The notes under the pieces are model-generated. The model was not told where the DNA came from. It saw only the letters and a list, made by a program, of their open reading frames with translations, and made no database searches. Position numbers and translations under genes: made by a program. Shown here piece after piece: positions 5,654-61,557 of a stretch of DNA of 64,000 nucleotides (position 1 is the first letter of the stretch; the number at the start of each line of letters is the position of its first letter). Origin of the DNA: Brachypodium distachyon (Eukaryota; Streptophyta; Magnoliopsida; Poales; Poaceae); the NCBI RefSeq assembly GCF_000005505.3, contig NC_016132.3, forward strand, positions 38,392,914-38,456,913. Direction: 5' to 3'.

Positions 5654-6447
5654 TTCATTGTTGTGTGTGGTCTTTTTTTGTTCTAGCTTTGACCCGTTTA
5701 ACAAAAGCTAGATGTATTCATTTTCTTCTTAATTTAACGTCAGAGCTCCTTAACCTTAATGTTATAGCTCTCCCTCTTCCCCCCACCGACGGTTGTGGGT
5801 TTTTTCAAGGTTAGCTGTCGTCGCAGCACTTTTCTGACGATGGATACAGAATTACAGATATGTTCGATAATGTCGGGGAAAACGAAAAGCTTCTTGCCGT
5901 CAAGTCCCTCGCAAACAACCTAGCTTATTCACCAACTGCAACGGCGGGGTAGGAGGCGGAAGAACTCGAGGAGGAAGAAGACGAGGGAAATACTAGAATA
6001 GAACTCGGGGAGAGAAAATGGAACAGGATATTCGAAGCATTGTGGAACCCAAGTGGCCCACTGGTAACAGGATTGAAATACTGCCGCGATGTTGGAAATG
6101 CGGGATACTCGCAAGTGTATATATACCCCAAGCCAATAATATATAATACGAAATCCCTGATCACGAATCTTTGCGAACCAGCCAATAATAATACTGAGAA
6201 CTAAACTAAATTCTAAAGACACGACCCCTTGATCGATCAAAACGCTGCAAGTATGATATATTTTTTATTTCCTCTTGCAGATGAGGCTTTCTGGCACACA
6301 GATGAGAGACAGACACAGTAGGAGATCTGAAGGCTCCGCTGCTGCTTGCCGGGCTGCCGGAACGCATGCAATGCAACCTTAAAATAAGGCGCCGGCCGGA
6401 GACTGATCGAAAGACTAGCGTTGCAGCAGGCCAAATTAAATCGATCG
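5654..6447. other. Spacer between LINE remnant and wall-associated kinase gene 1
   Basis: The sequence is mixed, with T-runs and short incidental open frames on both strands, and no recognisable gene. The distal part presumably holds the promoter and leader of the plus-strand gene at 6448; no convincing TATA box stands out. Confidence 0.5.
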
Positions 6448-8885: not shown

Positions 8886-11019
8886 AAAGACCGCTGAAAT
8901 TTGAAAAAAAATTCATAACTAATTCATAAAAAATCAAATAAATGTGATTTTTTTTCTAAAGTTAGATCTTGCCATGCCAAACAATATTACCAAATATACA
9001 TAAAAAAAATTTGGTTTAAAAAATGATTTTCCATTTTCTAAATGCAAAAAATAAAGTATTTTATGAAGCAAGTACAATTGTTATGTCTCAAAATGGCCCT
9101 TATCCAATTTCCACACGAAGTAGACCATATTTCATTGCTAGTGTCCAAAACTTTGGAATTTTCTAGCTTTTTAGCAACTTTTTTCCGTTTAAATGAATTT
9201 CTTGTTATTTCCCAAAAGTTATTCAAATTTGAACTACAAGTGTGTGATAGTTCGTTCCAATTTTTTTTCCAAAAAATCATTTTAAAGTACCCAAGTAAGA
9301 TTCAAAGAGGGTGTTGAAATATTCAACACCTTGCCATGATAAGATGTGCCGACAATTTTCACCTCATCTTAAAAAAAAGTCAAACAATATTAAAAAAAGT
9401 CAAAAAAGTAGGTTATTTAGCATGGAGTCCTTATATGCGGTACTAGTTGACATGAAAAATGATAAACTTGAATTTTGACAATTGTTAAAAAAAAACCCTT
9501 CACAAAATAGCTTATCAGGTATGAATGTTTATGTCCTTGAAGCCAAATGACCAAAATACTAGTCATTTCTATGTTTTAGTTTATGATAACGTTCTCATTT
9601 TTTGCACAAAGGTGCGTCTTGCAGTGCCAAACAATGTCGCCAAAGAGATTTACAAATTTCCTTGTTTTATAGTTGTAAAGACAAAAAAAACCAAAATTTC
9701 AGGACCATCACAATTTGACCCGCATGGGTCTAAAATAAAAGACGGGGAACCTGCGTGCTTGCATGCGATTGGTGGAGCATTGCAGCCATTGGATCGATGA
9801 CATGTCTCGCCCAAGGCCGTTGATCTCCCCCTCTCTGCTCCCATTCTCATTCTCCTGGATCGACCCCTTCTCTCTGCTCACATCCCGAATTCCCGAGTGA
9901 CCATCGATCTCCCCACCTCCCTTCCGAGCAGCAATCTCTCCCTCCTCCCCACCTCTCTCTTCTCCCTGCCTCGGCAACGCAGGCAACCGCCGCCCTCCTC
10001 CCTGCCTCGTCCGCCTGATCCCGCTGCCACCGGATTGCCTCGGCCCCGCCCTTCGTCGCCGGATCCTCCTCCGCCCGACGGCCGGCCCTCCCGCCGCCAC
10101 TGGATCCGCCGCCGCCGGATCCCGTGCACAGGAGGGTGAAGGTCTACTCGGAACTCCCCCCTCCTGTCTCTCGGTTCATCTCTCTCTGTCTTTCTAACTC
10201 TCCCGGATCTGTCTCTTTCAGTCTGCAGAAGAGTTTGCCGCCGGCATGGAGTTCCGAGCTCGCGGCGGGCGTGGAGACGAGTTCGTCGCCGGCGTGTAGA
10301 GGAGGTCCCCGCCGCTGCCTCCTGCCTCCTCCACTCGGGGTCCCCATGCCGTGGGTGTGCCACAAAATAACGGTGTACTCCAGCAAATTTTCTAATTAAT
10401 TAATATCACTTTTGGTCAGAAATTAAAATTATTATAATCATTCTCCACCCTGAATTTTCCTGGGATTTCCTTAATCGGTTTATGTATTTTTATTTGAATT
10501 AAAATGATTAAGGGATATTGGATTTAAGAGAGGGATTTTGATAATCAGATTTTTATAGATTTCTAGTTTCTTATTTGATGATTTCTTATATCTAGACAAG
10601 ATAGATGAGAGAGATCATTAAGATTGGATTCATGATGAGAAACTAGACAAGTAGTATTCAAGTTCATAAGGTTTTGAAACTCCACATAAAGGCATCAGTT
10701 AAGATTCTTCAAATAAATCGAAGAAAAAATAATAATTCCAAATGAACCTCCAATAAAGTTTTTGGAAAATGGTAATTTTTATTTTTATTAAAGAAAAAAT
10801 TGTTAACAATTGAGAAACCATCTCAAATAAGTTATTAAAGACAAAAGAAATTAAAATAGAGGAAAATAATAATTAATTAAATAGAATTATTTGTCTTTCA
10901 TTTGGAGATAGACGACTTCTCTATCGCATTTGCGAAGGCCAATATGCTGGTTTATTGAAGACAAAAAGGAAAGAAATTAAAGACCTTTATTTTTTGTTTT
11001 GAATGCTCCGGCCATGCAG
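8886..11019. other. Non-genic spacer, possibly the interior of a CACTA-derived element
   Basis: AT-rich sequence runs to about 9700, with a motif repeated at about 8965 and 9610 (CTTGCCATGCCAAACAAT and CTTGCAGTGCCAAACAAT). A GC-rich block at about 9830-10370 gives incidental open frames on both strands with no recognisable domain; it looks like captured or low-complexity DNA. AT-rich sequence resumes from 10380 to the exon at 11020. No gene is supported. Confidence 0.5.
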
Positions 11020-13612
11020 GTGGGTGCCAACATTCTTGCGGGAACGTGTCGGTGCCGTACCCATTCGGCGTGGGCCAGGGCCATGGCTGCTACCGGGAAG
11101 GGTTCAATCTCACGTGCAACGACACAGGCCACGAGCCACCGCGGCTGTTCCTGGACAAGAAGATGACGATGCAAGTCTTGGAGATCTCAATCCAGAACAA
11201 CACGGCACGCGTCCTCGACACCCGCGTTAGCGCCAGCGGGATCTGGAGGCCAACGGATGGCACCAGCACCAACACCACCACGGGGGGCGACAAGGAAAAC
11301 TTCTTCTTCACATTCAACACGGACCAAGAGATGATGCCTTACTCCCTGTCGACCCGCAACGAGTTCATCCTTACTGGGTGCAACCTGATGGCAGAGCTGA
11401 GCCGGGCAAGCGACGGGAGCATCCTCAGCGTCTGCGCCTCCAAGAAGCACCAGCAGTGCAACGGCATGGGCTGCTGCAGGTCGCGCATCTCCACGTACAA
11501 CAAAAGCAACATGCCCTCTCAGTTCATCTGCAAATGGAAATGGTTCAACAAGGGCCACGGTGACGACGGCGAATCGCCGCCCGCCTACGCGTTCATCGCG
11601 GAGGAGGGGTGGTTCAAGCAGGGGCGGGTGGAGGAGGAGGGGTGGTGGTTCCATCAGGATCAGGGCCCCGACAAGGACAGCAAGCTTCTGCTCCAGGTTC
11701 CCATTCTTCTCCAGTGGGAAGTATTCTCCAGCAGTGCTGCTGCTCACGACATCATCAAGTCTTGTTCCCGTTCGGATTGTCATTGTCCGCGGGAGGTGTC
11801 CGCCAGCCTCTGCAAAAGCAAGCACAGTTACTGCAAACGAGGAAGCAGAGGCGGCTATACCTGCCACTGCAGCAAGGGCTACGACTCTGAAGCGGACGCC
11901 AACCCGTACGTCTCCGGCGGATGCCGAGGTTAGTTTGTTGATTAATTTGCACTATATAATTATTATTTCCTCTAATACGCGCACAGTACAATATGTTATT
12001 AATTGCTCTGCCCCTTTTATATATCTCCAGGTCGCAACAATTTCGCTACTACAGGTGAGCAATTTCAATACTGGGGATCTCGCAGTCGCAGGCGCCGCTC
12101 CTGCTGTCTTTTCAGTATTTCCCTAGCTTCCCAGAAACATATACTCGTATTCTAATTTCAATCCACTCAAACTCTTAACAAATTTCTCCTTTCTAATGTC
12201 ATTAACTCTCAATATATGCACAGATTACTTGACTTACTTCGTTGCTTAGCAAGTGTAGATATATCAATCGAGGTTATGACACACGCACGCACGCACGGCA
12301 CACGCAAGCACCCATGCACCCCCCCACCCACCCACCCCCCCCCCCCCCCTACACACACACACGCACACACGCACACGCACAATAAATTAATCCTAATATT
12401 TTTCAGGTAAATACATCACTATAGTAGTTGCTATTGGGGCGGGTGTCATACTTTCCCTTTTCACTGCATCCTCCGTTTCGAAAAAGCTCAAACACCGAAG
12501 AGCGCAAATATTGAAGCGACAGTTCTTTGAGAATAACCGTGGGCAATTGTTGCGGCATTTGGTATCTCAAAGAGCTGATATTGCAGAAAGAATGATCATA
12601 ACCTTGGAAGAGATAGAGAAGGCCACAAACAACTTTGATAAAGCACGTGAACTTGGTGGTGGAGGCCATGGCACGGTTTACAAAGGGATCTTATCCGACC
12701 TCCATGTCGTAGCCATCAAGAAACCAAAGATGGTGGTTCAAAAGGAGATTGATGAGTTTATTAACGAGGTTGCTATCCTGTCACAAATCAACCATAGAAA
12801 TGTGGTGAAACTCTATGGTTGTTGCCTTGAAACACAAGTTCCTCTATTGGTCTACGAGTTCATATCCAATGGTACCCTTTATGAGCATCTTCACACAGGT
12901 GAATCAAGATCTTTGTCATGGGACGATAGGCTGCGGATAGCAGTTGAAACAGCTAAATCTCTAGCTTATCTTCACTCAACAGCTTCAGTACCTATCATTC
13001 ATAGAGATATCAAATCAGTTAACATACTTTTGGATGATACTTTGACAGCAAAGGTAGCCGACTTTGGAGCTTCAAGGTACGTTCCGGTGGATAGATCGGC
13101 TGTAACAACAATGGTGCAAGGCACAATAGGATATCTGGACCCCATGTACTTCTACACACAGCGTCTCACGGAGAAGAGCGATGTTTACAGTTTTGGCGTC
13201 GTTCTTGTTGAACTGTTGACTAGAAAGAAGCCATTTTCATACATGTCACCTGAAGATGATGGTCTCGTTGCACATTTTGCTACCTTGTTTGCAGAAGGCA
13301 ATTTGTTGCAGATACTAGACCCACAAGTTGTGGACGAGGGAGGCAAAGAACTGGAAGCAGTTGCGACACTTGCAGTAACATGTGTAAAATTAAGTGGAGA
13401 GGATCGCCCGGTCATGAGGCAAGTGGAGTTGACTCTTGAAGCCATTCGAGCATCCAATCAGGGTGTGTCAGCTAACAGTGGTTGAGGGAGTTGAGGAGAA
13501 TGGTATTGTGATCAATTGTCCACAAACTGAAGATCAAATAACCACCGAAGAATCGTCCAGACAATTCAGTATGGAAGAAGAGATGATGTTATCTTCAAGG
13601 TATCCTTGGTGA
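11020..13612 (+). CDS. Wall-associated receptor-like kinase, 5' exon not found, frameshifted tail
   Basis: Exons 11020-11928, 12031-12054 (24 nt) and 12407-13485 join in phase 1. Exon 1 has GGCQHSCGNVSVPYPFGVG (GUB_WAK_bind), then a WAK-associated Cys-rich region ending CKSKHSYCKRGSRGGYTCHC. The microexon gives RNNFATT, followed by the membrane span ITIVVAIGAGVILSLFTASS. The kinase has glycine loop LGGGGHGTVYKG, VVAIKKPK, HRD in IIHRDIKSVNILL, DFG in VADFGASRY, and KSDVYSFGVVLVELL. It therefore looks catalytically competent (RD type). The frame stops at 13485, but the usual C-terminal tail (SSRQFSMEEEMMLSSRYPW) follows in the +1 frame to 13612, so one inserted base has cut it short. The acceptor at 11020 is phase 1 and no in-frame ATG precedes it: the signal-peptide exon is upstream, lost, or supplied by the neighbouring gene. 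Confidence 0.85.
12280..12385 (+). repeat. CA/CCCA/poly-C microsatellite in WAK intron
   Basis: Low-complexity tract of CACG, CCCA, a run of about 15 C and CACACG units within the intron before the kinase exon. Likely length-variable and hard to sequence. Confidence 0.9.
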
Positions 13613-14813: not shown

Positions 14814-17800
14814 TCAGCACTCTATCCTGACTGCCCCGCTTTGTGTGGATATGAACTTGGGTTTCCTGATCACCTGCTCCAAGCACTGGATGGTATCCCC
14901 AACCTGGAAATGATCGCAATCCTCAATCACCAGCCCACAGTCGGAACCCTTGTCGAGAGTGTCAGCATCCTGCTTCTCTCGCTTCAGAGATGCACATGGA
15001 CCCTCAAAGACGACATCTCCGCTCCTCAATAGTCTCATGGTTCCAGATCTGCTGAAGTGTCCGTCGGTTATCCGGCAGCCAGCAATCTTGATGTCTGGCC
15101 CTTTTGATTTGCTACGCCCTTTCAGCTCGAATATGTTCAGAACCTCAGCCTCCCCTGAAATTTGGGTTTCAGCAACCCCTGGTGCCTTCTCCACAATCAG
15201 CCTTCCCATTTCCTCAAGGAGATGGTAAATCACCTTGTGCAGCAAAATCTGAAAAGCAGACATGGTCAAGTCAGCTAAACTAAACTCAGTTGCAGTTCCA
15301 GATTGTGTAAAAGACAGCCAAAAAAAATCAACCTACATGTTTATGAGACACTTAAAATATATATTGTCTTTTTTTGTATGGGAACATATGTATTGCATGC
15401 TTGTGGAACAATTGAATGAGGCTAGTCTAAACACAGGATAATGTGAAAGTAGGGTTATGTACATATTGGGCCATTTCGATGGTGAAAACTCGTGCTTTTG
15501 GGATGATGAGTAAACATTTTTAGCACAGATGACTAGGGTTTGTGATTTATGTGGTGGTCTGATTTTTTATATTTAAAGATTTGATTGTTTGAGGGAAGTT
15601 CAACGGAATTAGCAAAGGTTTTTTTTTGTATGTGCCACTTTGGAGTTCTTCTTGATGAAGGTTACGATGTTTCTGATTTCTACAAGGGTTTGTGATCTTT
15701 AGCAAGGTGTTTTTTATTTTTGGTGCCCTACCGTTATGATGCTGCTGATTCCTATTAGGATCAAAGTTTAATGGCAATTTGCTTACAATTTGCATCATCA
15801 GTGCATGTTGTATCTTTCGTTTGTGTGATTTACGGCACAGACCGTCTACCCTCGTATAAAGCAACACTACAAACCACGGAAAGAGGAAGTGTTATGTACA
15901 ATAAGATCTAGCCTCTCTGCATGGAATCCGGAAGGCATATGTACATCTTACACTGGCCACAAAGAGACGGTGCTGAAAATCTACCAGAAGTCAGACAGGC
16001 ATTAGAGTAGCAATAAACATTGTACCTTTATGTTGGCTTGTGTTGCTCCTAGAGTGATTGCACTCGGTGGATTGCGAACGTTGAAACCAACTATGTATGC
16101 TCGGCATGCTTGTGCCAGATCAATGTCATGTTCACTTACTGGGCCCACACCAACATGAACAATATTCACAAACACCTACAAAAGAAGGTAATATGGCATG
16201 ACTTGAATTCGATAGAAATAATGGAACCGGTAATAAGAACATATATCACATCCAGCAATTGGAACACACCTATATGAGGTCTAAAAGGCAATGTAAGCTA
16301 ACAGCAATTTAGCACTGCTTGTGTGCATGTAGTCAAATTTTGCAAGACTAACTCCATATGTAAAACTAAAATGTTCTTGAGAAAATACCTGTGGACTATT
16401 AAGACTTCTTAAGGCATCTGTAACTGCTTGAACACTGCCCTGTACATCAGCTTTGACAATAATGGGCATCTCAACTCTCTCAGGAGTCTCTTCTGCAATT
16501 TCTGCCTCCTCTGTCATACCTTCATCAATCTTCCTAAGCCTATCTTTCTCCTGTTTCTTCTTCCTCCCTTGACTAAGCATTCTTGCCCTTTCCTCGGAGT
16601 CAACAACCACTACATCATCCCCAGCCATAGGAAGGCCCCTTAGCCCCTCAATTTCAATAGGCATTGCGGGTTTTGCAGCCTCTGTTACTTTACCTGCCGT
16701 ATCTCTAAGCGATCTAATTCTTCCCCACTCTGCTCCCACGACAATGTATTGCCCACTGATTAATGTGCCGGACTTAACAATAGCTGTAGCTAGTGGTCCC
16801 CTGCCCCTGTCCACCCTTGCCTCCACCACAAAAGCTTGAGCAGGCCCGTCTGTTCTGGCTTTCAGGTCCATTATCTCAGCTTGAAGGAGCAACGCCTCTT
16901 CCAGTTTATCCAAACCAAGTTTGGATAATGCAGAAATTTCAACAACCTGTACATCACCACCCATATCCTCCAAAAGCAATCCTTCAGAACCAAGCTGAAT
17001 TCTGACCCTCTCAGGATCAGCCCCAGATTTGTCACATTTGTTTATAGCAACAACGATGGGAACATTTGCTACTTTTGCATGTGACATAGCTTCAAGTGTT
17101 TGTGGCATCACACCATCATCTGCTGCAACCACAAGCACTACAATATCTGTAACAGCTGCACCTCTAGCCCGCATTGCACTAAATGCAGCATGCCCTGGTG
17201 TGTCAAGAAACGTGATAGAAGCTCCTGATGTCATCTCAACAACAAAGGCACCTATATGCTGAGTGATCCCGCCAGCTTCCTTAGCTGCAACAGATGTTTG
17301 CCGTAGGGAATCCAGAAGTGATGTTTTACCATGATCAACATGACCCATAACTGTTACAACAGCAGGCCGTGGTTCAACTGTGCCTTCACCTGTGTGCATT
17401 CTTTTGATATTAACACCAATTTCCTGTGGAACAAGCAAGAAACGTATGGTTTCATATCATAAGAAACAGAAGGTTCGCTAAAGCTTCTTAAATATTTTAT
17501 GATGACAAAACTTAGGTGTATATTGGAGATAATAGAAGATACAATTAATAAAAGATCAGTATAACTAGAGTTTTAACATGTATGTTTGCTCAAATATAAT
17601 GATATCATCAAGCTAGTAATAATTCCATTTTTATTTTGAGAATAAAACAAAGCAAAAAAGAAAAAGAAAAAGAAAAAGAAAACATGGGGAAAACAAAACA
17701 TTGTAACCCAATGGCAATACAATATAAAAACCAGTTAGATGGGAATCCACTATCGAACAAAAGTGGATCCATCCATCCATTCTCACACCACGACTTGTAC

Positions 17801-22849: not shown

Positions 22850-24117
22850 TCAAAAGCCATCCAGGAAATCCGGTTCCGCGATATCCTGCTTCTCCTCAAC
22901 AAGAAGGGACCAGGCCACAGTAATCTCCACCACAGCATCACCAAGGCGACATCTATCCTGACTTATCTGGCAATCTTTGGCCTTGAAGCAGACAAGACCT
23001 CGTTCAGCGATACCACCAGATGGTGAGTAGGCCTCTATGAACCACCTCCAACTTACCTGCCAATTGCACAGAAACAACTTGCCTCGACAGATTCAGGTAA
23101 CCATCAGAACTCTTGGCCAATTTTCCATCTTTCGAATCAAGCAGCAGAACTGGCCCCGATGAGGGATTAGCATGATACGTGGTTCCATCAACAACAGAGC
23201 TCGCAACTGTCCTTGTTGAAGGGTATGCTGCAACTCGACAGCCATGTTCAGAAGGCCATGACCCACATTTGACAACACGAAGACCCAAAACAGTGGCCTG
23301 GACCGAGCGTCTAACCTGCTCCAAACATACCTCAGCTGTGCAGAAACAGCTCCTAAAGCTGAAGGTGGATACACCTGGACAACGTTCGGTGTAATGCCAT
23401 ATATCGGTGATCAACAACCGATCCGGCTTTGCGCTACGTTTCGCTTTAAGCTGGATCTCAAAATCAACGGGGTCCGTCAACACGATCGCACGAGATGGGC
23501 CAATCTCTCAAGCGCAGAAAAGGATCGTCTTCCCAAAGTTCTTGGGGCTCCGTCGAATCACGAAAGAAGAGAAGGTTGCGATTGCCGTCCACGTGGTCTC
23601 GGGCAGCGACCAAGCCGTAGACGGACAAGGGCCATCTGAAGCCACCTTTTATGTCCGTGAGTTTGATGGTGAAGATCTGCAAGGTGGTCTCGGTGCCAAC
23701 ATCATAACGAGAGGTGCCTTGAGGTGTCAAGTGTGTGAATTGCATGGAACTCAGTGTCGTGACATCTGAGAAGGAACCGCTGGTTCGGCCCCATATAGTT
23801 TCCCAGAAAGAACGGTACTGTGTGAGGTTCCACTCCATGTAGGCCAATTCATCCTTCTCGGCGGCTAATTGTGCGTCCGGTTTGCCTCTGTCCATCTCAT
23901 CGACAGCAGCATCGGCGTAATAATAATCATCGTCGTTGGGCATCATGAAGGAGGAAATTATGAGATCTTCTCCTTCCTGTTCAGGGATTGTGTTGGTCTT
24001 GTCTGATTTGGATCTGGACGCCTGGTTATTGGTACCTGCATCTGCATCGTCCATCACTGGATCTGAGTTTATCTCCAACTTTAATTTGGGGTCGATCATC
24101 ATCAGCACCTCCTCCAT
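22850..24117 (-). pseudogene. DUF6598-domain protein with two frameshifts
   Basis: From MEEVLMMIDPKLKLEI (24117) the frame passes through an acidic linker and TQYRSFWETIWG to SMQFTHLTPQGTSRYDVGTE, TTLQIFTIKLTDIKGGFRWP and LSVYGLVAARDHVDGNRNLL, the conserved core of the grass-expanded DUF6598 family. Near 23515 one extra base shifts the frame: GPSRAIVLTDPVDFEIQLKA continues in another register. Near 23040 a second extra base shifts it again, to IEAYSPSGGIAERGLVCFKA and LGDAVVEITVAWSLLVEE, ending at 22850. Correcting both restores a full-length domain, so the gene is either recently inactivated or misread. An in-frame ATG at 24159 could extend the N-terminus. The family has no firm biochemical function. 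Confidence 0.8.
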
Positions 24118-24334
24118 GGCTGACTTGCCGCAGCTCGTGTTAATCAGGCAACTACTCAATCACTACTCAATCGCGGCATGATGTCCAATCGCAGTTAAAA
24201 TCAATCAATTTAATTAGGCAACTACGGAGTTTCGATCGATTAAAACATGTTTCCTCATCGTAGCTGCAATCTTAGGCAACTAGCAATCGATAGATTTGTA
24301 TAGATTTGTGTGAGCGTACACGTTTGGATTAAGT

Positions 24335-26280: not shown

Positions 26281-27540
26281 TTACTCGCGCTCGATCTGGA
26301 TGGTCACATGACTGATGTTGTACTCTGCCTTGATGTACCCAATGACCTTGTCAAGCATTTGATCAGCATTCGCCTCCTGCGTGATCGTCACATGGCACGC
26401 CAAGAGCACCTTCCCCACTGTGATAGCCCAGATGTGCAGCTCATGAACAGCAATCACACCTTCCATTTCACGTAGACCATTCTCAAGCCTTGTAGCATCG
26501 ATCTCACGAGGAGTGCTCTCCATCAGGACTTCAAGTATGTTTCGGATCATCTTGATTGTGGTAAACAGTACAATCACGGAGAAGATGAGTGTGCATATGA
26601 GATCGATAATCTTCCATTCAGGCTTGTACCAGATGAGAGCCCCTCCAATCATTACACCGACGCTCTGGATGGAGTCCCCAATTACATGCAGATAGGCACT
26701 GTGTACATTGATATTACGCTTCTTGGCAGCCTTACCACCAGGCTGGGCACTCTCACAATCACCATCATGCTTAAGCAACGGTTCCTCAGCACCCTGATGT
26801 TGTCCAGTGCTGGAATGAGAGTGCTGACGGGTTGTGATGGTTATAGAACTACCATGGCTGTGCTCATGGTGGTGCACATGGCCCTCCTCATGATCTCCAT
26901 GATGGGTATGGTGGTCGCCTGAGTTATCATGATCATGGTCATGTGAATGTCCATGGCTATGACCATGGCTGTGCCCATGTCCGCCATGCCCATGGTCATG
27001 ACCAAGCAAGACTGCCATTATGATGTTAACAAACAAACCAAAAGCTGATACAGCAAACATGAGGGAGCCCTGTACCTCGCCACTTTCAGTAATGAGCCTC
27101 ATAATAGCTTCATACACAAGTATGCCAGCAAGGAGCCATATAAGCTGAATGGAAACCAATGCCCCAAGAATTTCTATACGGAAAAATCCATATGACTGCT
27201 GAGGTGTCGCTTCCCAACCAGCTGCCCAGAGAGAGAACAAAGATATTGCAAAGGCTGCAACATCTGAAAGAAGATGTGCTGCATCAGTCAAGATTGCAAG
27301 ACTGTTTGCTTTGATGCCTCCAACCACTTCCACGGCCATGAATATAACACAAAGGATCACCGCAATTAGGAGCTTCCTCATGGACGCAGATCTCTCCTGT
27401 GCATCTTTTGAGGTGTTATTGGAGTCAGAAAAGTCACAAGCCGCACCTCTACACATTTTGTTCCCAGCTGCTCCAGAAGCAGGTGTGATGTCCAATGTTA
27501 CTTCAGGGATATGGGGCACCGCTGAATCATGGCCGTCCAT
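26281..27540 (-). CDS. MTP1: Metal tolerance protein 1, vacuolar zinc/proton antiporter (CDF family)
   Basis: Single-exon CDS of 419 residues with six predicted membrane spans. The two zinc-site motifs of cation diffusion facilitators are present: HLLSD in TM2 (89-93) and HVIGD in TM5 (285-289). Between TM4 and TM5 lies a long His-rich cytosolic loop (about 181-242) made of HGH/HSH/HDH units, typical of plant MTP1. The C-terminal cytosolic domain carries [20 protein letters not shown] and ends [10 protein letters not shown]. Plant MTP1 loads zinc into the vacuole in exchange for protons, giving zinc tolerance. The N-terminus has a conserved-looking Cys pair (MCRGAAC). An intron acceptor lies directly before the ATG, so the 5' UTR is spliced on from upstream. 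Length and motif order match full-length, functional family members. Confidence 0.96.
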
Positions 27541-39524: not shown

Positions 39525-40717
39525 TGCTGAGAAATATATCCTGTATAACTTCACCGATCACTGGATGGGAGTCTTCAGATTGCCCCATACAAGAACCCCA
39601 TCCTCCATTCTATTCCGAAAGCCAGGAGGGCTAACATGTTTGTTTCTCTGTTTCAGTCGTTGGGAGCTTTTACAACTTTTTATTTCCCAATCTCTCCAGG
39701 GAGCTGGAACAAACCAGTGTTTGTACCGACCCTGTTTCTTCTTTTCCTGATGAGTGCTGTATCCAAATAAAATCCATCTGGTGTATGATGGAAGGAACCT
39801 GATTTGCAGAAAATAATTTGAAGTGTTCGCGAGTTAAAGCGCTTTATCGTGCTCCTGGCCGTTTTATTTATTCCTGTGAAAATGCCCATACGTTTGTAGT
39901 CCGATCTTAGCTTAAGCATTCGAGTATCATAGTACAAGAAGCTTAATGTTTCATACGGACAAATAACATTGCTGACATCCGTTTGTTTCCTGCTATATTT
40001 TCGTGGTGGATCTTCATCTTCGTCTAGGGTCAAAGCTTTCCGTTGTTTATATTCCAATAGTTGCTTCTGTGCATGCCACTGACGGCCAGCCGTGCGATGA
40101 TCCATAATGAATCGGAGGGAGTAGTATAGTTGGACTGCAAAACCAAACGTGTGCGGCGTGCTTGTTCCCAAGTGCGAGTCTCGTTCTTTATCTGAAGAAA
40201 AATCGCAGCTGAAGTCTATTCTGACCAAGCCGCACGCCACTACCAACCTGGCGACATGCCCTAGTGCCCTTGCTCGTCTTTACACCTAGGAAATGGAGTA
40301 ATGCTGTCTCCGTAGCAAAAAATGTTACAAATCATTTCCTGGCACTATCACAAAATCTAGTTCTAACAGCAATTAGGCTGATTAAACACGTCATGTGTGG
40401 TATTTATATGACACATATAAATAACACAGGTACAGTACTACTCCAATTCCGAAGAGCCACACAACACAACACATAGATACAAAGGAATTCCAAGACGGAA
40501 AAAAGTCTATCAAAAGGAAGGAAGTCCAAGACGGAAAGAAAGTCCATGGCGAAGGGAACAGAGACCACGCGCTCGTTGAGCCGCCTCCACGCAACCAACC
40601 TCCTTCCTACGCCTACCAAAAGACCACTGACTCGAATAAAACTAAAAACCAAATCCCCAAATCCAGCCCGTACTTGATCCCTCGAACACTTCTCCAGCAT
40701 CCGCATCCCACTTCGCC
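39525..40717. other. GSH1 3' UTR and ARGD promoter
   Basis: Tandem gene spacer of about 1.2 kb. A half Stowaway end remains near 40106 (GAATCGGAGGGAGTA). Open frames on the minus strand here (39680-40246, 40404-40706) are incidental and have no family resemblance. Confidence 0.55.
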
Positions 40718-42420
40718 ATGAATTCGCTCCAGTCCTTCCTCGCCGTCGCGCCCGTCAAGCCGGCCGCGGCCGGCGCCAGGCTCCCGTCGTCGTCGTCCTC
40801 TCGATGGGCGCGCGTCTCCGCCTGCCTCGCGACCCCGGCGCCGCCGGCGCCTACCGCCGCCAAGCGGCGGGAGCTGTCCGCGGCGAGCCTGGCCGTCATG
40901 GCGGACGAGGCCAAGTACCTGGTGGGCACCTACAAGCGCGCGCAGGTCGTCTTCGTCTCCGGGCGCGGGTGCAAGCTCTACGACATCGACGGCCGCGAGT
41001 ACCTCGACATGTCCTCCGGCATCGCCGTCAACGCCCTCGGCTACGGCGACGCCGAATGGCTCCACGCCGTCAAGGGCCAGGCCGGCGAGCTCGTCCACGC
41101 CAGCAACGTCGCCTACACCGTCCCCCAGGTACGCCCTCCTCTCCACCCGCAATTCGTTCGACACTGTCCGCAAGGTGTTCGACGCTTTGCCTGCCCCATT
41201 AGTCTCTCCATCTCAACGTTGTTGTTGTCATCCTTCGCGCAGACGGTGCTCGCCAAGCGGCTCGTGGAGTCATCCTTCGCCGACAGGGCCTTCCTGGCCA
41301 ACACCGGCACGGAAGCCAACGAGGCGGCCATCAAGTTCGCCAGGAAGTACCAGCGGGTCGCGCACCCCGGCGGGGGCGCGCCCACCGAGTTCATGTCCTT
41401 CTCCAACTGCTTCCACGGCCGGACCATGGGGTCGCTCGCGCTCACCAGCAAGCAGCAGTACCGCGAGCCCTTTGAGCCGGTCATGCCTGGCGCGGCATTT
41501 GCGGAGTACGGCAACTTGGAGGAGGCCAAGAAGGTGATACGGTCGGGGAAGATTGCCGCTGTGTTTGTCGAGCCCGTGCAGGGTGAAGGTGGAATTCACA
41601 GCGCCACCAAGGAGTTCTTGCAGGGGCTGCGAGCTGCTTGTGATGAGGCTGGGACACTCTTGGTCTTCGATGAGGTAGGATACAGGTTGCCTCTACTAAT
41701 GTTATTTATGTTGTGATTTTATTTATTTATTCTATATCCTGCATGCAAATTCGTGATTGCATTTAGGATTTTCATACTTATTCCCCATGAAGAAAGGATT
41801 TTGGATTGCACCGTGAAGCTCTCAACCTCTGTTTGGTCTAAAAAGTGGAGATCATCTAAATAATCTACTGTCTGAAATCGCAGGTGCAATGTGGTCTTGG
41901 GCGCACAGGTTCCCTCTGGGCTTATGAGAATTTTGGAGTTGTACCTGACATGATGACCTTGGCAAAACCACTAGCCGGCGGCCTTCCTATTGGTGCAGTC
42001 TTGCTCACTGAAAAGGTTGCTGCTGCCATAAACTATGGCGACCATGGTACCACATTTGGCGGAGGCCCTTTTGTATGTGCGGCTGCACTAGTCGTATTGG
42101 ACAAGATCAACAAGCCAAGCTTCCTAGCAGAGGTGACCAAGAAAGGAGAAAACTTCAAGCAGCTGCTCCGTACCAAGCTGAGTGGAAACCCTCATGTGAA
42201 AGAGATCCGGGGATTTGGTCTCATTGTTGGCATTGAGCTCGATGTACCGGCTGGTCCTTTAGTCGAAGCGTGCTTGGACGCTGGTGTCTTTTTGCTGACA
42301 GCCGGAAAAGGCAATGTTGTGAGGCTTGTGCCGCCGCTCATCATCTCGGAGAAGGAACTGGAGCAAGCTGCAGATGTGATAAGGGAATGTCTACCTGCTC
42401 TCGACACCCCTGCCTCGTAG
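40718..42420 (+). CDS. Acetylornithine aminotransferase, plastid/mitochondrial
   Basis: Three exons, 40718-41128, 41243-41674 and 41884-42420, give 459 residues. A Ser/Ala/Pro-rich targeting peptide (about 1-50) precedes [20 protein letters not shown]. The class III aminotransferase fold is clear: [30 protein letters not shown] (PLP phosphate region), [38 protein letters not shown], and [13 protein letters not shown] with the PLP Schiff-base Lys at about 309. [13 protein letters not shown] and GLIVGIEL follow. It transfers an amino group from glutamate in the acetylated branch of arginine synthesis (argD-type). Ornithine and GABA aminotransferases are relatives, but the motif spelling fits the acetylornithine enzyme. 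Intron 1 is 114 bp, stop-free and in frame. The gene is convergent with the GH9 gene, whose stop lies about 445 bases downstream. Confidence 0.94.
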
Positions 42421-42464: not shown

Positions 42465-42905
42465 ATCCTGAAGTTTCTTTCAAAAATTGGAAGGAAATAA
42501 TGTCATGTTTGAGTCAGCGCGTTCTGAGTACTGTTCTTGGTGTAAGTAAATGATTTATCAGGTACTGTCTCCTGTGTTCCAATAACGAGGACGGCAGCAT
42601 CATTCCTCATCTCATGACTGAAAACAGAACAGTCTCTCAACTATGCAGAAGCCTTGCCAGCACTCTGACGATGAGTTCTCTATTCCAAAGTTGCTTTCAA
42701 AAGTTTCAAGGAAATACGGTCATGTTTGATTCTCATGTTCCGAGCACTCTTTCGATGTTCTCGGTGCAACTCAAAACTGATTTATTACGTGCTCATGTGT
42801 TCCCGTAACAAGGATGGCATCATGATTTCTCATCTCATGACTGAAAAAAACAATGAAAAATCTCTCTAACTATGCACAAGTCTTGCAAGCACTCCGACAA
42901 TGGGC
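42465..42905. repeat. Tandem duplication of about 220 bp between ARGD and GH9
   Basis: Unit A (about 42465-42680) and unit B (about 42690-42905) align throughout with small gaps: TTTCTTTCAAAAATTGGAAG against TTGCTTTCAAAAGTTTCAAG, then TCATCTCATGACTGAAAA in both, and CTATGCAGAAGCCTTGCCAG against CTATGCACAAGTCTTGCAAG. Unit B includes the last GH9 codons; unit A holds a relic of them (minus strand IVRVLARLLHS then stop, against [11 protein letters not shown] in the gene). Confidence 0.8.
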
Positions 42906-44965
42906 GCGACGGTATAGGTCGACGTCTCGCCTTGCACGTAATTCCCCCGACTATCATTGTACCGGTCGTTGGCGTCAGGGCCTCCGACAATGGCGCCGAC
43001 GATCACATTTTCATTGGGTTTCGCCGTATGGAAGTAGCCGGACCCATCGCTGCAGCCGATCTTCGCTGGGCTGGCCTTGATGGACGGCAGCGACGCGCCG
43101 CGGTGGTGCACCTGCTCCGGGTACCTGTCTCCATACCCAACCATGTAGCTGATCTTCTGGGGGTTCTTCCCAAGGATGTAGTCCACCTGTGACCGTGCAA
43201 AGGAGACCAGCTGTGCCGGCGGTAGCTTCACGCCGCCGCACTGGAGCGAGCCCCCCGCCGTGGCCAGGTGATCGGCGTGCGCGACGAGGGCGAATGCCGC
43301 CGCCGTGACGCATTGCTGGTTGTCCCAGGGCTGCACCCAGAGCATGCCGCCCGGGCTGAGCTTCCCGCTGCTGCCGTCGCCGTGCTGCATGATGTTGCAG
43401 AGGTACTTCTCCAGGTTGCTCTTCAGCGCCCCGTAGTTGCCGGAGTCCGGCAGCTTCCCTTGGAGGACGAGCTGCACGATTGCCGGCAATTATCAGTTAC
43501 CGAAACTAGAAGTTGCCTCGCTTTGAAGAGAATTCAGTAGGATCATGGTACAATAATGGTCTGTGATTTATAACTTGCCTTGGCGACTAGTGTCTGAGCT
43601 CCGACGTATTTGTAGTCCCAGGTGAATAATGGCGGAACCCCGCCGTTGCCGCCGTCGGCGATGAATCTCTCGTAGTTCTTCTCGCCGGTGGCGATGTAGA
43701 GCCAGGCAGCCGCCCAGAGCAGCTCGTCCTTTTTGCATTTCCAGCGATGCAAACAAGTTTCAGGATATATGTGTTTTTTGCACAGATTGCATAAATAAAT
43801 AAAGATGGTAAAAATGCCTTTGATTTTTTTTTCATCAAAGTGATTACTGCAAGATGCGGATTTCTTCGTACCTGATCGCCGCCGCTAGGATAAAAAATTT
43901 TAGCTGACGGCACGCTGTTGTGGTAGAGACCACGGTGGTTCTTCGCGAACTCAAACAGCTGCAAAATTAAGCAAGACGGTCAAAAGAATTAATTCAGTTC
44001 ATACATAAACTTCAGCTGTACGTGCACATTGATATGGTTGCCATTTTCTGAAAAGATTTGCTTGACATACTACATTTAGTGTCATTACGTCCAAATTAAT
44101 ATTTTCCACAAACGCAAACCTGTTACTCCGTACTAATTTTGTGCATTCATTGATGCACACGTGTCAAAAATATGCAGTAGCGCAATTAATCTCTGCATGT
44201 GGTAATTCATACACGGTAGTAACACGCACCTGTTTGGCGTGCGTGAGAAGCGTGGCCGCGTAGTTGCCGCCGCCAGCGGCGTGGGCGTCCCTGAACACGA
44301 CGGAGGCGGCGGCGAGAGCCGCCGCGGTCTCGGCGGCGACGTCGGAGCCCGGGTGCGTAGCGTTCACCTCGTAGGCTCCCCTCGGCGTGTCCATGTCCTC
44401 CGGCCTTTCCCAGCACTTGTGATCCGAGTCCCCGTCGCCGACCTGCACGAACAGTTTCTCGCCGTCGCCGCCGTTGCCGGCGACGTGGGCCCTGACGAGG
44501 TAGTCGGCGCCCCAGCGGACGGCGTCCAGCGCGTGGCCCAGCTCGGCGGCCCGCTCCAGCCCGGCCCGCTGCTCCGCCACGGCCCACGACAGCATCGTCA
44601 CCGTGAAGGCCATCGGGAGCCCGAACTTGACGTTGTCGCCCGAGTCGTAGTACCCGCCCGTCAGGTCCACCTGCAAGCCACCGCCATTGTTGAATGTTGG
44701 TTAATGAGTATCAGCAGGAGCTTAATTTAGCTTAACTGGATTCGGTGCTGCTTACGCCGTGGTCGGCGCCGTCTTTGAGGGCGGAGTGGCCGCGCCATTG
44801 GACGCGCTGGGTGGCCGGAAGGCGGCCGGAGCGCTGGGCCTCGAAGTAGAGGAGCGATTTGGAGAGGGCGGCGGCGTAGTCGATGGCGCCGCTCGCCGCC
44901 GGGGTTGCCATAAACACTACCAAGGCTAAAGCGAGCAGCAATACTATCCTAGCCATGATCGCCAT
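42866..44965 (-). CDS. Endo-1,4-beta-glucanase, glycoside hydrolase family 9, secreted
   Basis: Five exons: 44965-44756, 44670-44230, 43958-43872, 43728-43579 and 43471-42866, giving 497 residues. A signal peptide ([20 protein letters not shown]) precedes [22 protein letters not shown]9 signatures follow in order: [20 protein letters not shown] (Asp79 and Asp82, catalytic base region), [27 protein letters not shown], the His motif [13 protein letters not shown], and the C-terminal [20 protein letters not shown] with catalytic acid Glu at about 478. There is no membrane anchor and no carbohydrate-binding tail, so it is class B (secreted, extracellular). It should act on amorphous cellulose or related glucans during wall remodelling. 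Intron 4 starts with GC (AAG|GCAAGT) instead of GT. A CTT-rich tract lies in the leader. Confidence 0.95.
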
Positions 44966-47635: not shown

Positions 47636-50600
47636 TCAAGATGCTTCGGCGGCGCTGGGGAGATTGCTTGAGCTGCTGAGCAATAACGGCCTCAGGGCCT
47701 CCACGACTTCGCTCATGTTTGGCCGAAAGTCCATCTCGTACTGCACACAGAGCGCCGCAATTTCAGCCATCTGCTATTCCAACGTACGGCGAGAATAAAG
47801 AAACATTTGTTAGCTCGTTCATAGTGTGTGAGTAGCCATTCCTTCGTATAGAAATCTAAAAATCCGACTAGCTAAATTTTGACCAGCATCTACAACAATA
47901 TATCCATATTTCAGTCTCTATATTCCACTAGTCAAATTTTAACGAGCTGCTCTCAACCTCTCCGGTAGTAGCAAAAGAGGATGAGAAAGGGTAATATGGA
48001 GGTCATGATGGCTATGTTATTGCGAACAATAGCCATTTCTAGAATAAAGGCTGAGATAGGTATGTCACTACGGATGCTCTTAGATTAGTTCTGTGCCGAG
48101 TGAGCCAACAAAAATTAGTTTTCTACTTTTTTATATTTGAGATATAGGCAAAAGATTGACTTACTCCAAACAGGCCAAAAAAACCACAAACGTCTATACT
48201 GGCAAGATTCCAAATGATTTGCCCGCACGTCCCTGAACCCAACCTGCCACAAAGATTTCGTACTAGTGACACGGTAGAGCATGGCAGAATACTCACGAGG
48301 TGTTGCTGTGTTAGACCAGGCTTTAGCGGACAGTCGTAAACTCCTATAGTTTCCTTTTACCTGAGTAACCCACATGTCATCGTGTGGGTCCCTGGTCTTG
48401 CACCAGTTTTCTGGCCGTTTGTAAATATCTGTAACTTGCTCTATTTCTTCCAAGTGAAAGGCAATGCCTCCTGCCGCTAACTCGAAAAAGAATGGCAGAA
48501 TACACAGGCTCAAGAATATACCTTGGCAAGAGCCTTAAGAGGGTAACCTCCTCCAAGCCTCGGATCTACGCATCTGTGCAACTTGGATTCCGAAAGTTTT
48601 GGTTTAGCCTGCATATCAATGGCACTAAGAGTTTTGCTGTTGCATCTACTCAATAAATGAAATTCCTAAATGCATTCATACGCACCCATGCCACGAGGAG
48701 AGCAGGGCGCAGTTTAGGATCATACGCCTTACGACCGGTTACAAGCTCCAGCAGCACAACACCGAAGTTGTAGACATCACTCTTTGTGGTCTTTTCTTGC
48801 ATAAACCATTCCCTAACAGAACCTTAGATTAGATTAGTAGGAGAGTAATATATCATCTTCCAAGCCTGGTGGAAGAATGTGACAGAATGAAGCATTTTGT
48901 TGCATACTCAGGTGCGCCACAAGGCCCACAATGAGGAATGGGGGAAATACGATCCAAAAGAATATCATCTTCCGAATAAGGGGCCTGTCTCGAAACACCA
49001 ATGTCGCCAATCTTTGCAACATCGTCATCAAAGAGAAGTACGTTGCTGGACTTGATTGCACCATGGATAACGCAAGGCCGTGCCTTCTGGTGGAGGAACT
49101 CAAGCCAGTTTGCAGCACTTAGGGCAATCTTCACTCGTTGCCCCCATGACAGAACAGGTCCTGGTTGGGCTCCCCTAACACCCTTGTTACCTGTGGTCCT
49201 AAACAAGCAGAATATCAGCCCTTTTTTGTCAAAATATTTTTAATTTTATTGGAGAGAAAAAAATGATATAAGAAAGACACTGAAATACATCAAATGGGGG
49301 TCTAGTTTTAGTTTCATACATCTCCCTAGGAGAAATATATACCGGCAAAACGGTTCATGGTTTGGATACTATCCTTGTGTGGAAAACTCATGTGCACCCC
49401 TGAATGGCTAGCATGTGGCATAGAGGCAAATGTGTCACGTGCCATGCGAAGAGAGCTCGCAAGTGGCTGCTAGAGGGGTACCCTCTTTCTAGCATATCTG
49501 TTTTTTCTATGCCTATACTCAGAACATTCCGGCAATTTGATCAAATACTTGTTGCATTTATTTTAAAAAGAGAGAATTTCACCTTTTTTACCCCTTATTT
49601 GTGATTTGGTTAAAACTTTTACCTCGTTTCAAAAATAATGTCATATTTTACTCTATTGTTATGACATTGTGACAACTTTTATCCCATTTTATTATTCCCC
49701 CAAATGACAAGCTGGACCCACATGACAATGTTGTAGCAGTAATCTTGGCAAACCCATAATCGTTATGGGCATATCAAATCATGTTGAGTTATATTAAATC
49801 ATGTTATGCTAAATAAATTTGATATTTTTCAGAAAAATGGCCACTTTAGTGTTAGAATTTGATGAAATATAGCAAAATTGTAAAAATCTTGATAGAGTTT
49901 AGCTTAATTTAGTGATTACATGTCTCCGTGTTGTCTGCCCACTGAGTTGTAAGTCATCCTGTTATGCAGGTCTAGCTTATCACTTCCGGGAAATAATAAA
50001 ATAGGATCAAAACCATCAGAAGGTGTCAAGTTGTCAACTGGACTAAAGGGTAAAATATCTTACATTTTTTTAAACAAGGTAAAAACTGTCATAAACTTAC
50101 AACTAGGGGGTAAAAGGCATACTTTAATTTTTTAGAAAAATTGAGCGACATGAGACCGGGCAGCACACAAAGCTCATAAACTGTTAAAAAATTGAGAGTT
50201 TTGGAAGGAACAACTCACCATGAAGAATATCGTGCAGGGATCCCCCGGGTGCATACTCATAAGCAAGAACACAATTGTCTCGATCAGAACAGTATCCAAG
50301 AAGCTGGACAACATCTCATGTTTAAATCTTGAGACCACCGGAAACTGCATCAGAAGTGTGGTAATTAGAAGCAAGCCTTGTTTATGACAGAACTACGGTC
50401 GGGCAAAAGCTGGCATGAACCAATTTTCCTTTCAAGGAAAGAACAGGACAGTACAAATAGTTGTACTAAAAAGATGAAGAGTATTAGCCGAAATTTTGAC
50501 AAAAGGCAAGGAACAGAGCCCATTACCTCCAAAAAAGTTTCTTCAATAGAGTTTGGGTCAAGCTTCAAGATGGCGGATTTCTGTCCATCTTTCAGCACTC

Positions 50601-50744
50601 CGAAGAAAACATTACCGTATAAGCCCCCTCCTATTAGAGTATCATTCCTAAAGTTCCTTGTTATTTGCTTCAGTTCGGCCAAGGAAATGGTCGGCACCAT
50701 TAGAGGATCATTGCTAAAGTTGGTAGTTATTTCCATCCGATCGT
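47636..50744 (-). pseudogene. PTI1-like kinase domain, predicted pseudokinase, second half of a tandem kinase gene
   Basis: Exons 50744-50527, 50344-50219, 49190-48908, 48812-48686, 48608-48522 and 47770-47636 follow the exon and residue order of PTI1-like (Pto-interacting) kinases: ISLAELKQITRNFRNDTLIG, GLYGNVFFGVLKDGQ, VSRFKHE, then [20 protein letters not shown] and [51 protein letters not shown] and [20 protein letters not shown]. The catalytic HRD is HGA ([13 protein letters not shown]) and DFG is DIG, so it should not phosphorylate even if intact. At about 50313 one base is missing (HE, then VVQLLGYC in another frame), which leads to a stop early in the next exon. The acceptor at 50745 is in phase with the donor of the kinase exon upstream (51230), so both belong to one transcript unless an unseen promoter separates them. 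Confidence 0.8.
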
Positions 50745-50852
50745 CTGTGGAAATGGTCGGTATTACAGATGGTGAAATTTTGTCAGTTTCATTGACAGAA
50801 AACTAAAATTAAAATCTAATATGAGGATATGTTCAGGAACATTATTTATATA

Positions 50853-50965
50853 CTCCCTCTGATCCTAAATTCTTGACTCAAATTTGCCCAAATATGGATG
50901 TATCTATTCTTAAAAAGCGTCTAGAAACATGTAATATTTCGACAACAATTTAGGATCGGAGGGAG
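50853..50965. mobile_element. Stowaway MITE inside the kinase-kinase intron
   Basis: 113 bp, CTCCCTCTGATCCTAAATTC to TTAGGATCGGAGGGAG, TA flanks. It sits in the intron joining the two kinase halves. Confidence 0.92.
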
Positions 50966-51229
50966 TATTTAGGAGTATATATTTAGCAAACCAAATACTA
51001 TGTATCAACAAATTCCTTTGGTGAAATTATTTGAATCAAATTATTCTCTGTGTGGTTGACCATGTGGACGTCAACCAGTCAACCACCAGTAAGAAACCTA
51101 GTAGAACAAAATGAATGAGGAATCACAAAACATTTTCATGGCATATATACAATAAATTTACCAACATTAATTGAAGCAGAGGAAAACTATTACATGATTG
51201 ACATGCCAACAGGGATTTTCTCATCTTAC

Positions 51230-52205
51230 CTATAGAACTTCTGCCCTTGCGCTTTTGGAGAACTTTTCTAATTGTCCTAAGTCTATCTGCTACTTCAACC
51301 ATTTCTGGACGTATTTTATCCTCCATTTTCAAGCATTCGGCTGCTAATTTTGCGATACCATCAAGCAACTTGATGTTCCCCTTTTCACTCGCAATTTCCC
51401 CATCAAACATTTGTCTCACCTTTTTCCCTTTCCTGAGAGCCTCAATAAAACTTTGGGTAAGATTGGTGTCACCTCCTGCAGCTTTCTTTCGGGTGAGCAT
51501 TTCCAGCAAAACGACTCCAAAGCTATAAACATCACTCTTTGGAGTTAGGATCCCAGTCTGACAGAACAAAGGGTCCATATAACCTATGCAACCAATGACA
51601 GTTCTCGTACGCTGAGCCTCGTCAGCAGAAAGCAATCTCGCTATTCCAAAATCAGATATCTTTGGCCGGAGATTTTCATCCAGCAGTATGTTAGCAGGTT
51701 TAATGTCACCATGAAGAACAGGACTATACATTGAGTGCATGTATGATAATGCTTCAGCTGACTCGATGGCAATATCCAAACGTCTGTCTAAAGCGAAGGG
51801 GGCATGACTATTAGCATTGCAGCAGTGAAGGATATTTTCCAGGTTACCATTACAGATAAACTCCATAACAATCGCTAGAGAGTTTTCCTCTGTGCAGCAA
51901 CCCAAGAGTCTAACGACATTCTTATGGTTTATTTGGGAATGCACTATCAACTCCTTGGCAAACTCTTCTTTCTTGGTTCCGTTTTTGTATCTCTTTACTG
52001 CGAGCGGACGCTGATTGTCTAATAATCTTCCTTTGTAAACCTTACCGAATCCCCCTTCTCCCAGCAGGGAGCGATATCCATTGGTGATGTCTTCTGTATC
52101 TTTTTGTGTGAAAGATTGTAGGCTACAGTTGTTGTCCACTCTTTCAAGCACTACACGTCCATTAATTTGTAGGAACTCCCTAACATTGCTGCCTTGGTAA
52201 TCCAT
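51230..52205 (-). CDS. WAK/LRK-type cytoplasmic kinase domain, first half of a tandem kinase gene
   Basis: ATG at 52205 opens MDYQGSNVREFLQINGRVVL and a complete protein kinase: glycine loop LGEGGFGKVYKG, Lys in LAVKRYK, EFAKELIVHSQINHKNVVRL, catalytic loop LHGDIKPANILL, DFG in ISDFGIARLL, GYMDPLF, KSDVYSFGVVLLEMLTRKKA and a C-lobe ending RPEMVEVADRLRTIRKVL. HGD in place of HRD marks a non-RD kinase (catalytic Asp kept, Arg lost), the class common in plant immune receptors. No signal peptide or membrane span is seen, so it is probably cytoplasmic. The exon ends SSI with a phase 1 donor (ATAG|GTAAGA), which splices in frame to DDRMEITTNFS of the PTI1-like part. If the donor is not used the frame runs to 51123. 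Intact combined length would be about 650 residues. Confidence 0.87.
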
Positions 52206-52438
52206 GTGCAAACTGTAGACCAGTACTAGATTTACAGGACAGGGAGTACCAATGGCTGTCCTACTTAAATGAATTTATATAATTCATCGATATTGCAATT
52301 TGAATATTCAATCATTTGTGGTGAAAAGATAGTAGGCATAGGTCAATCTGTTTATATGAAGTTGGAACCAAGACAAGAGAATTAGCAGGGAAAATGGCTG
52401 GAGAGGGACCCTGTTTCCGTTTTGTTAGTACTCATCTA

Positions 52439-52551
52439 CTCCCTCCATCCCATATTAAGTGACTTTCTATTACATGTATCTAGACGCTTTTTAGGCATAG
52501 ATACATTCATATTTGGACAAATTTGAGTCACTTAATATGGGACGGAGGGAG
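52439..52551. mobile_element. Stowaway MITE
   Basis: 113 bp, CTCCCTCCATCCCATATTAA to AATATGGGACGGAGGGAG, TA flanks, about 230 bases upstream of the tandem-kinase start codon, so possibly in its promoter. Confidence 0.92.
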
Positions 52552-53184
52552 TATTTGGAACTTGTTAGTCGTTGTAAGGCTTTTTGAAATCTGCTGTTTG
52601 GTTTCAGTATTCAGGGCATGTTGGTTTCATATGTGAAATGGAGCCAGGGGGCTGACCACTGTTGATCGAAAAAAAAGATGGTAGCCATTCCATTGGCTAA
52701 TTCTAAATTCATATGTATAATAGCATAATTATGATTGTTTAATTCCAAAAGTCAAGTCTCTTGGCTCTTGTCACACTTTCTCACAAACGGATGAAGAAAT
52801 AGATTATTTTTTTTAAGTTTGGACAAACCAATAACCATTGCAGGTCTAAATTCATATGTACCTTCACCTCCTCCGGGATCTCCATATATAGACACCGACG
52901 ATGTCTAGAATGATAGTAAGCATCTACTTCTGCGACTGCAGAGTTTGTCTTGCGGCCGATTCGATAAGTTTTGATGCAGTGGAGCTTGATCCAACAAGTC
53001 ATATTCAGAATCGCAGACAACAACCTGGCAGTTGAACATGTGTAACGTTTAGTTCTGAAATCCCTCTTATGACATTCATTGTTCTTCATGTTCCGTATGG
53101 TAACTGATCCGTAGCATTCATTTTGTTACGAATTCAGCTCTGTGCCAATGCATATATATACTCCCAATAAGATCCATTCACGTT
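52552..53184. other. Spacer before the solo LTR
   Basis: AT-rich, no gene recognised; the minus-strand frame at 52781-53089 has no domain. Confidence 0.5.
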
Positions 53185-60999: not shown

Positions 61000-61104
61000 A
61001 TCTCGCTTTCTTTCTCTCTAGTTTTTTTGAATCCTCTTCCTCCCACCAACAAAAAAAGAGATCCCGCCTGGTTCCTGAGCCAAGTTTCTCTGAGAAATCC
61101 GACC

Positions 61105-61557
61105 ATGTCGCGCCGGAGCTCCAGCCCGGAGAGCAACATCGATGGCGGCAGCGGCAGCGGGTCCGCCGGCGACGAGCGGAAGCGCAAGAGGATGCTGTCG
61201 AACAGGGAGTCGGCGAGGCGGTCCCGCGCGCGCAAGCAGCAGCGCGTGGAGGAGCTCATCGCCGAGGCCAGCCGCCTCCAGGCCGAGAACGCGCGCGTGG
61301 AGGCCCAGGTCGGCGCCTACGCCGCCGAGCTGAGCAAGGTGGACGGCGAGAACGCCGTGCTCCGGGCGCGCCACGGCGAGCTCGCCGGGCGGCTGCAGGC
61401 GCTCAGCGGCGTCCTGGAGATCTTCCAGGTCGCCGGCGCCCCCGTCGACATCCCGGAGATCCCCGACCCGCTGCTCCGCCCGTGGCAGTCCCCCTTCGCG
61501 CCGCAGCTCATCCCCGCCACCGCCGCCGGCGCCATGGCCGACGCCTTCCAGTTCTGA
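61105..61557 (+). CDS. S1-group bZIP transcription factor (ocs-element-binding type)
   Basis: Intronless CDS of 150 residues. After a Ser/Gly-rich head comes the basic region ERKRKRMLSNRESARRSRAR with the invariant N-x7-R (Asn33 to Arg41), then a zipper with heptad hydrophobics (LIAEASRL, VEAQVGAYAAEL, VDGENAVLRARHGEL, LAGRLQAL). Short length, single exon and the QVGAYAAEL zipper are typical of group S bZIPs, which bind ACGT/ocs elements, often as heterodimers with group C partners, and act in sugar and stress signalling. An upstream ATG-less extension of the frame (from 61027) is open but lacks an initiator. Start chosen at ATG 61105, in context ACCATGTCG. The conserved SC-uORF in the leader confirms the S1 assignment. 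3' UTR signals follow from 61558. Confidence 0.95.
   Translation: MSRRSSSPESNIDGGSGSGSAGDERKRKRMLSNRESARRSRARKQQRVEELIAEASRLQAENARVEAQVGAYAAELSKVDGENAVLRARHGELAGRLQALSGVLEIFQVAGAPVDIPEIPDPLLRPWQSPFAPQLIPATAAGAMADAFQF

Follow-up and report, generated by a model that had tools for sequence, protein, structure and literature searches.

Two kinase domains lie head to tail in the window, as we call the whole 64-kb stretch of plant DNA that was analysed, and the question is whether they belong to one gene and, if so, of which kind and in what state. On the minus strand, a non-RD WAK-like kinase (52205-51230) is followed by a PTI1-like pseudokinase (50744-47636). PTI1-like kinases are RLCK-VIII. That the two belong to different subfamilies and share one strand had been proposed from the letters alone. 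The Pfam matches are PF00069 for kinase 1 and PF07714 for kinase 2.

Exon structure and the junction between the kinases

Exon 1 (51230..52205, minus strand like all parts of the gene) starts with the ATG at 52205 and codes for the WAK-like non-RD kinase 1 (PF00069, E 7.3e-46). It is 976 nt long, and its phase 1 end at 51230 is followed by the donor GTAAGA. Intron 1 (50745..51229) separates the two kinases; the last base of its acceptor AG is 50745, and exon 2 (50527..50744) takes up the same frame at 50744. Exon 2 contains the linker and the glycine loop with the VAIK Lys of kinase 2. Exon 3 (50219..50344) is frameshifted by one base relative to its kin: its 126 nt do not lead into exon 4 in the phase required there. 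Exon 4 (48908..49190) harbours the HGA catalytic loop and the DIG motif (PF07714, E 3.2e-07 on 48885-49188), and exon 5 (48686..48812) also matches PF07714 (E 1.4e-04 on 48686-48802). Exons 6 (48522..48608) and 7 (47636..47770, with the stop codon at 47638-47636) complete the gene. For kinase 2, five exon pieces (2, 4, 5, 6 and 7) were searched against Pfam; those without a match of their own, i.e., exons 2, 6 and 7, were positioned with the help of related sequences. Each of the six introns begins with GT and ends with AG. A weak GT at 48883 was discarded as the donor of exon 4 in favour of the GT at 48907-48906, which puts the end of this exon at 48908.

The latter correction, like the positions of exons 2, 5, 6 and 7, was taken from P0031, a database protein found with the read-through fusion as query (X at the broken codon; 120 matches listed). 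P0031 has 393 aa, stems from a contig of 2460 bases and bears the source label 'lgn', which is taken to mean contigs assembled from public reads. It is partial, its start being a methionine inside kinase 1. Its first 60 residues are identical to the last 60 of exon 1 (60/60), and it continues without a gap at 50745. Mapped on the window, it follows exons 1, 2, 3, 4, 5, 6 and 7. It lacks introns 1, 2, 5 and 6 precisely between the borders predicted for them, and also intron 4, here with the predicted acceptor and the corrected donor. Intron 3 is removed in an altered form: exon 3 is left at about 50241, then 50157-50122 follows, then the sequence resumes at 49198, so that 36 bases of the modelled intron are included and exon 4 is entered eight bases before the model. 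An allelic difference, alternative splicing or a join made during assembly may account for this altered middle. As P0031 crosses 51230/50744 without introns, a nearly identical gene somewhere gives rise to a single spliced transcript, and the in-frame junction of the original prediction is met by a sequence that crosses it exactly.

Could two separate neighbouring genes nevertheless have been joined wrongly? If intron 1 is left in place, the kinase 1 reading frame stays open up to a stop at 51123, and precisely this unspliced ORF of 360 aa is found in the database as P0121 (4 members, 2 contigs of up to 1524 bases), which may represent genomic DNA or a retained intron. The removal of intron 1 from P0031, unless this entry is chimeric, speaks against two genes, and so do 74 of the 120 listed relatives, in which the kinases are fused. 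Two separate genes are therefore considered ruled out, with hardly any probability left for them. The same fused relatives and the P0031 junction bear out the proposed layout of kinase plus pseudokinase in one gene, and homologues with the halves as separate genes throughout, which would have argued for the opposite, are not the rule.

The surroundings of the tandem kinase gene are gene-dense. They comprise an IF-2-like GTPase (16284-17456), a DUF6598 protein (23007-24159), a zinc transporter (26284-27540), a class-III aminotransferase (40646-42417), a GH9 glycosidase (42869-44700) and a bZIP protein (61000-61554). The zinc transporter reaches no more than 91% identity with any of the 120 proteins listed for it (P0174, 91%; barley P0161, 90%; Brachypodium P0162, 88%). 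The source species therefore seems to be absent from the genomes named in that list, and together with the tree described below this suggests an early branch of the pooids. On the opposite strand there are two wall-associated receptor kinase genes or pieces of them, 6388-7463 and 10959-13482; both contain GUB_WAK_bind, the second also a kinase. Among the 18 ORFs of the window searched, none matched NB-ARC, and a search of the window with Rfam (gathering threshold) and a tRNA scan yielded 0 matches.

The frameshift and the predicted product

The 'missing base' that had to be restored in the original reading proved to be a genuine frameshift in the given sequence. Exon 3 lacks one base for the frame that the rest of kinase 2 requires, and the break sits between the equivalents of KHE and VVQLL of its kin. 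Joined unchanged, the exons encode 459 aa. These consist of kinase 1, then 83 residues that cover the linker and the part of kinase 2 ending in FKHE, and lastly a tail of 51 foreign residues. A single frame with both kinase domains is thus a property of the layout and of P0031; the window copy is frameshifted and, as sequenced, probably does not make a two-domain protein. Most likely, judged from the sequence, it is a non-functional allele that retains kinase 1 and a stub of kinase 2. Such alleles would not be without precedent. At the Yr15 locus, frameshifted non-functional alleles and homoeologues have been described, and Chinese Spring and Zavitan carry wtk1 alleles with a changed reading frame in exon 4. 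The window copy resembles the latter in having a broken reading frame and, most likely, in being inactive.

The break could, of course, be an assembly or read error, the genome holding an intact and working tandem kinase gene. The seven-exon gene deviates by a single base, no stop interrupts the kinase 2 frame in exons 4-7, and the six introns are all of the GT-AG type; moreover, P0031 reads through without the break. Broken alleles are, however, what has been described for the Yr15 locus, and we regard an error as possible but rather unlikely.

Alternatively, selection might have favoured kinase 1 alone as a shortened regulator, the functional product being either the 459-aa stub or the unspliced form of 360 aa. 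All catalytic sites of kinase 1 are intact although kinase 2 is broken, the unspliced form exists in the protein database as P0121, and minor isoforms of WTK1 that encode truncated proteins are reported to make up together 14.3% of the cDNAs. Yet mutations in either half of WTK1 are reported to abolish resistance, i.e., both halves are needed; the contigs behind P0121 may be genomic DNA; and no 459-aa product with such a foreign tail is among the 120 best matches listed in the protein search. A role of kinase 1 alone is accordingly judged improbable, and the non-functional allele remains the preferred interpretation of this copy.

Relatives, catalytic residues and the linker

Both halves were found in the order of the window in 74 of the 120 matches listed, when kinase 1 had to match with at least 60% identity over 250 aa and kinase 2, further along, with at least 40% over 150 aa. 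For the trees, 44 of these 74 were chosen by hand; the 30 omitted are additional copies or shorter versions, and they come from the same species or similar ones. The concatenated tree shows the window gene as the sister of 16 proteins beside the WTK1 clade (support 98/95), branching off before these split. The 16 comprise 12 from Triticeae, one from Avena, one from Lolium and two without a species label. Phylogenies of the separate halves, which had been suggested as a check, place the window gene alike, kinase 1 with a support of 98 and kinase 2 with 90; in the kinase 2 tree it pairs with P0031. Forcing the window gene into the WTK1 clade (8 rows) costs 19.2 log units, which is not rejected (p-AU 0.071). 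The phylogeny thus puts the gene most likely on a sister-paralogue branch of WTK1. Its nearest rows in the tree are WTK1 paralogues from Triticeae, Avena and Lolium (P0003-P0018 in part), with 73-80% identity in kinase 1, and the 16 sister proteins are probably the 'group 6' WTK1 paralogues mentioned in PMC6170490.

Two-half relatives also occur in Oryza, Leersia, Phragmites, Aristida, Stipagrostis, Setaria, Panicum, Urochloa, Miscanthus and Paspalum; a row named Brachypodium was not among the 120 matches listed for the fusion query. The presence of the pair in rice kin and in panicoid grasses makes it look older than the wheat-Brachypodium split, which is named in PMC6170490, unless fusions recurred. 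If all relatives stem from one fusion, their distribution suggests that WAK and PTI1-like kinase were paired before the lineages of rice kin and panicoids split.

Some relatives of about 1000 aa, P0012 (Oryza), P0009 (Phragmites) and P0022 (Urochloa), have three kinase-like domains. In P0012 and P0009 Pfam recognizes three kinase stretches each, and a match to kinase 1, at 29-31%, is seen in the middle part of each of the three proteins. P0009 and another Phragmites entry, P0172, which matches the zinc transporter, have the same length given for their longest contig, 34437603, and may share a chromosome.

The two halves differ in their conservation. Kinase 1 has the VAIK Lys, the alpha-C Glu, HGD and DFG, and all eight sites checked are identical in the 44 relatives and the window gene. 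The corresponding motifs of kinase 2 are HGA and DIG, and its VAIK Lys is retained; the residues named in the original prediction for either half were found again in the alignment. The HRD Asp is replaced by Ala in kinase 2 of the window; of 47 other rows, 8 still have it, namely Stipagrostis, Urochloa, Miscanthus, Panicum, Setaria, one unlabelled relative and two PTI1-type outgroup rows. The VAIK Lys is shared by the window gene and 34 of the 47 others, the DFG Asp by the window gene and 28 of them. With the HRD Asp lost and the other two residues kept, kinase 2 probably is a pseudokinase, perhaps one still able to bind ATP. Its sequence also changes faster: the median end branch is 0.23 for kinase 2 and 0.054 for kinase 1.

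A further feature of the window gene is a 66-bp tandem duplication across the start of exon 2 (50633..50760, minus strand; TRF: 66-bp period, 1.9 copies). The copies are identical in 49 of 62 bases, and the acceptor of the fusion, before 50744, sits in the upstream copy. The stretch just before this acceptor is an open frame, VNETDKISPSVIPTIS, and resembles the coding linker of relatives, e.g., that of P0001, VNNNDETLPSVVPTIS. It thus seems that a part of the linker that was once coding is now intron, the duplication supplying the acceptor. Related short inverted-repeat elements with arms of 28-29 nt are seen at 52437-52553, upstream of the gene, and at 50847-50971, in intron 1; both resemble Stowaway MITEs.

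The Yr15-type kinase pair and other tandem kinases

The closest known system is WTK1, the product of Yr15, which is P0047 in our list (A0A2Z5GZM3, 'Tandem kinase 1', Triticum dicoccoides). It aligns with 98% of the window query at 59% identity and has the same start, MDYQG. Exon 1 is 77% identical to KinI of WTK1 over 324 aa, and kinase 2 is 46% identical to KinII over 337 aa. In the alignment of both halves, WAK comes first, the RLCK-VIII/PTI1-like kinase second, and the linker has the same position. The original prediction had supposed the pairing of a WAK-like with a PTI1-like kinase to be uncommon. It is, instead, the pairing of Yr15/WTK1, which is given as WAK + RLCK_8 by Klymiuk et al. 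2018 (PMC6170490) and as WAK + RLCK-VIII in the Sr62 paper (PMC8956640). 'Undescribed', another attribute it had used, holds for this copy; for its kind it does not, the WTK1 type having been published. The window gene is a new member of the family of Yr15-type kinase pairs and ordinary in kind. The truly new points are small ones: the fusion acceptor inside the 66-bp duplication and the three kinase domains in rice-type relatives.

WTK1 is described as having a non-RD KinI and a KinII that lacks most key residues. It has six exons, the window gene seven; WTK1 contains extra residues exactly at the position of intron 5 of the window gene, which would explain the difference. Functional WTK1 also differs from the window copy at the frameshift.

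All in all, the locus is best explained as a pooid WTK1 (Yr15)-type tandem kinase gene that most likely belongs to the sister-paralogue branch; its intact alleles would be immune receptors, and this copy would be a defective one. We consider this explanation reasonably probable. An intact allele would give rise to a soluble intracellular immune receptor. Its fast-changing pseudokinase might sense or bind a pathogen effector or act as a decoy, the conserved kinase 1 would pass the signal on, and a helper NLR might act downstream of kinase 1. In this copy, the frameshift would leave a product of 459 aa, made up of kinase 1 and the stub of kinase 2. The decoy model for tandem kinases is stated in a sugarcane paper (PMC11041754), and according to the Pm4 paper (PMC12830362) Sr62 and RWT4/WTK3 depend on an NLR; both steps are carried over by analogy from tandem kinases other than WTK1. 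One may go further and assume that an early-branching pooid grass has both intact and frameshifted alleles, segregating like Wtk1 and wtk1 in wild emmer, the intact allele being a resistance gene of its own lineage with a linker rebuilt by the 66-bp duplication, which gave the new in-frame acceptor. This we consider unlikely.

The favoured explanation extends the Yr15-type pair to another grass lineage, represented here by a copy with a broken pseudokinase half and an intact kinase half. Breeders can draw on intact alleles of such genes for rust resistance; the window copy is probably not among them.

That the domains have the kinase fold is beyond doubt. Among the best 60 of 2658 matching solved structures are plant receptor kinases such as BRI1, SymRK and CERK1 and animal IRAK kinases; none of these 60 has a tandem kinase among its molecule names. 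Rpg1, Pm24/RWT4, Sr60 and Sr62, as compiled in PMC8956640, likewise have two kinase domains per protein and confer resistance to fungi. Their domains are, however, of other subfamilies: Rpg1, Pm24 and Sr62 are listed there as DLSV-DLSV and Sr60 as DLSV-CR4L, unlike the WAK and PTI1-like domains of the window gene. With these proteins it shares the layout, but not the fusion.
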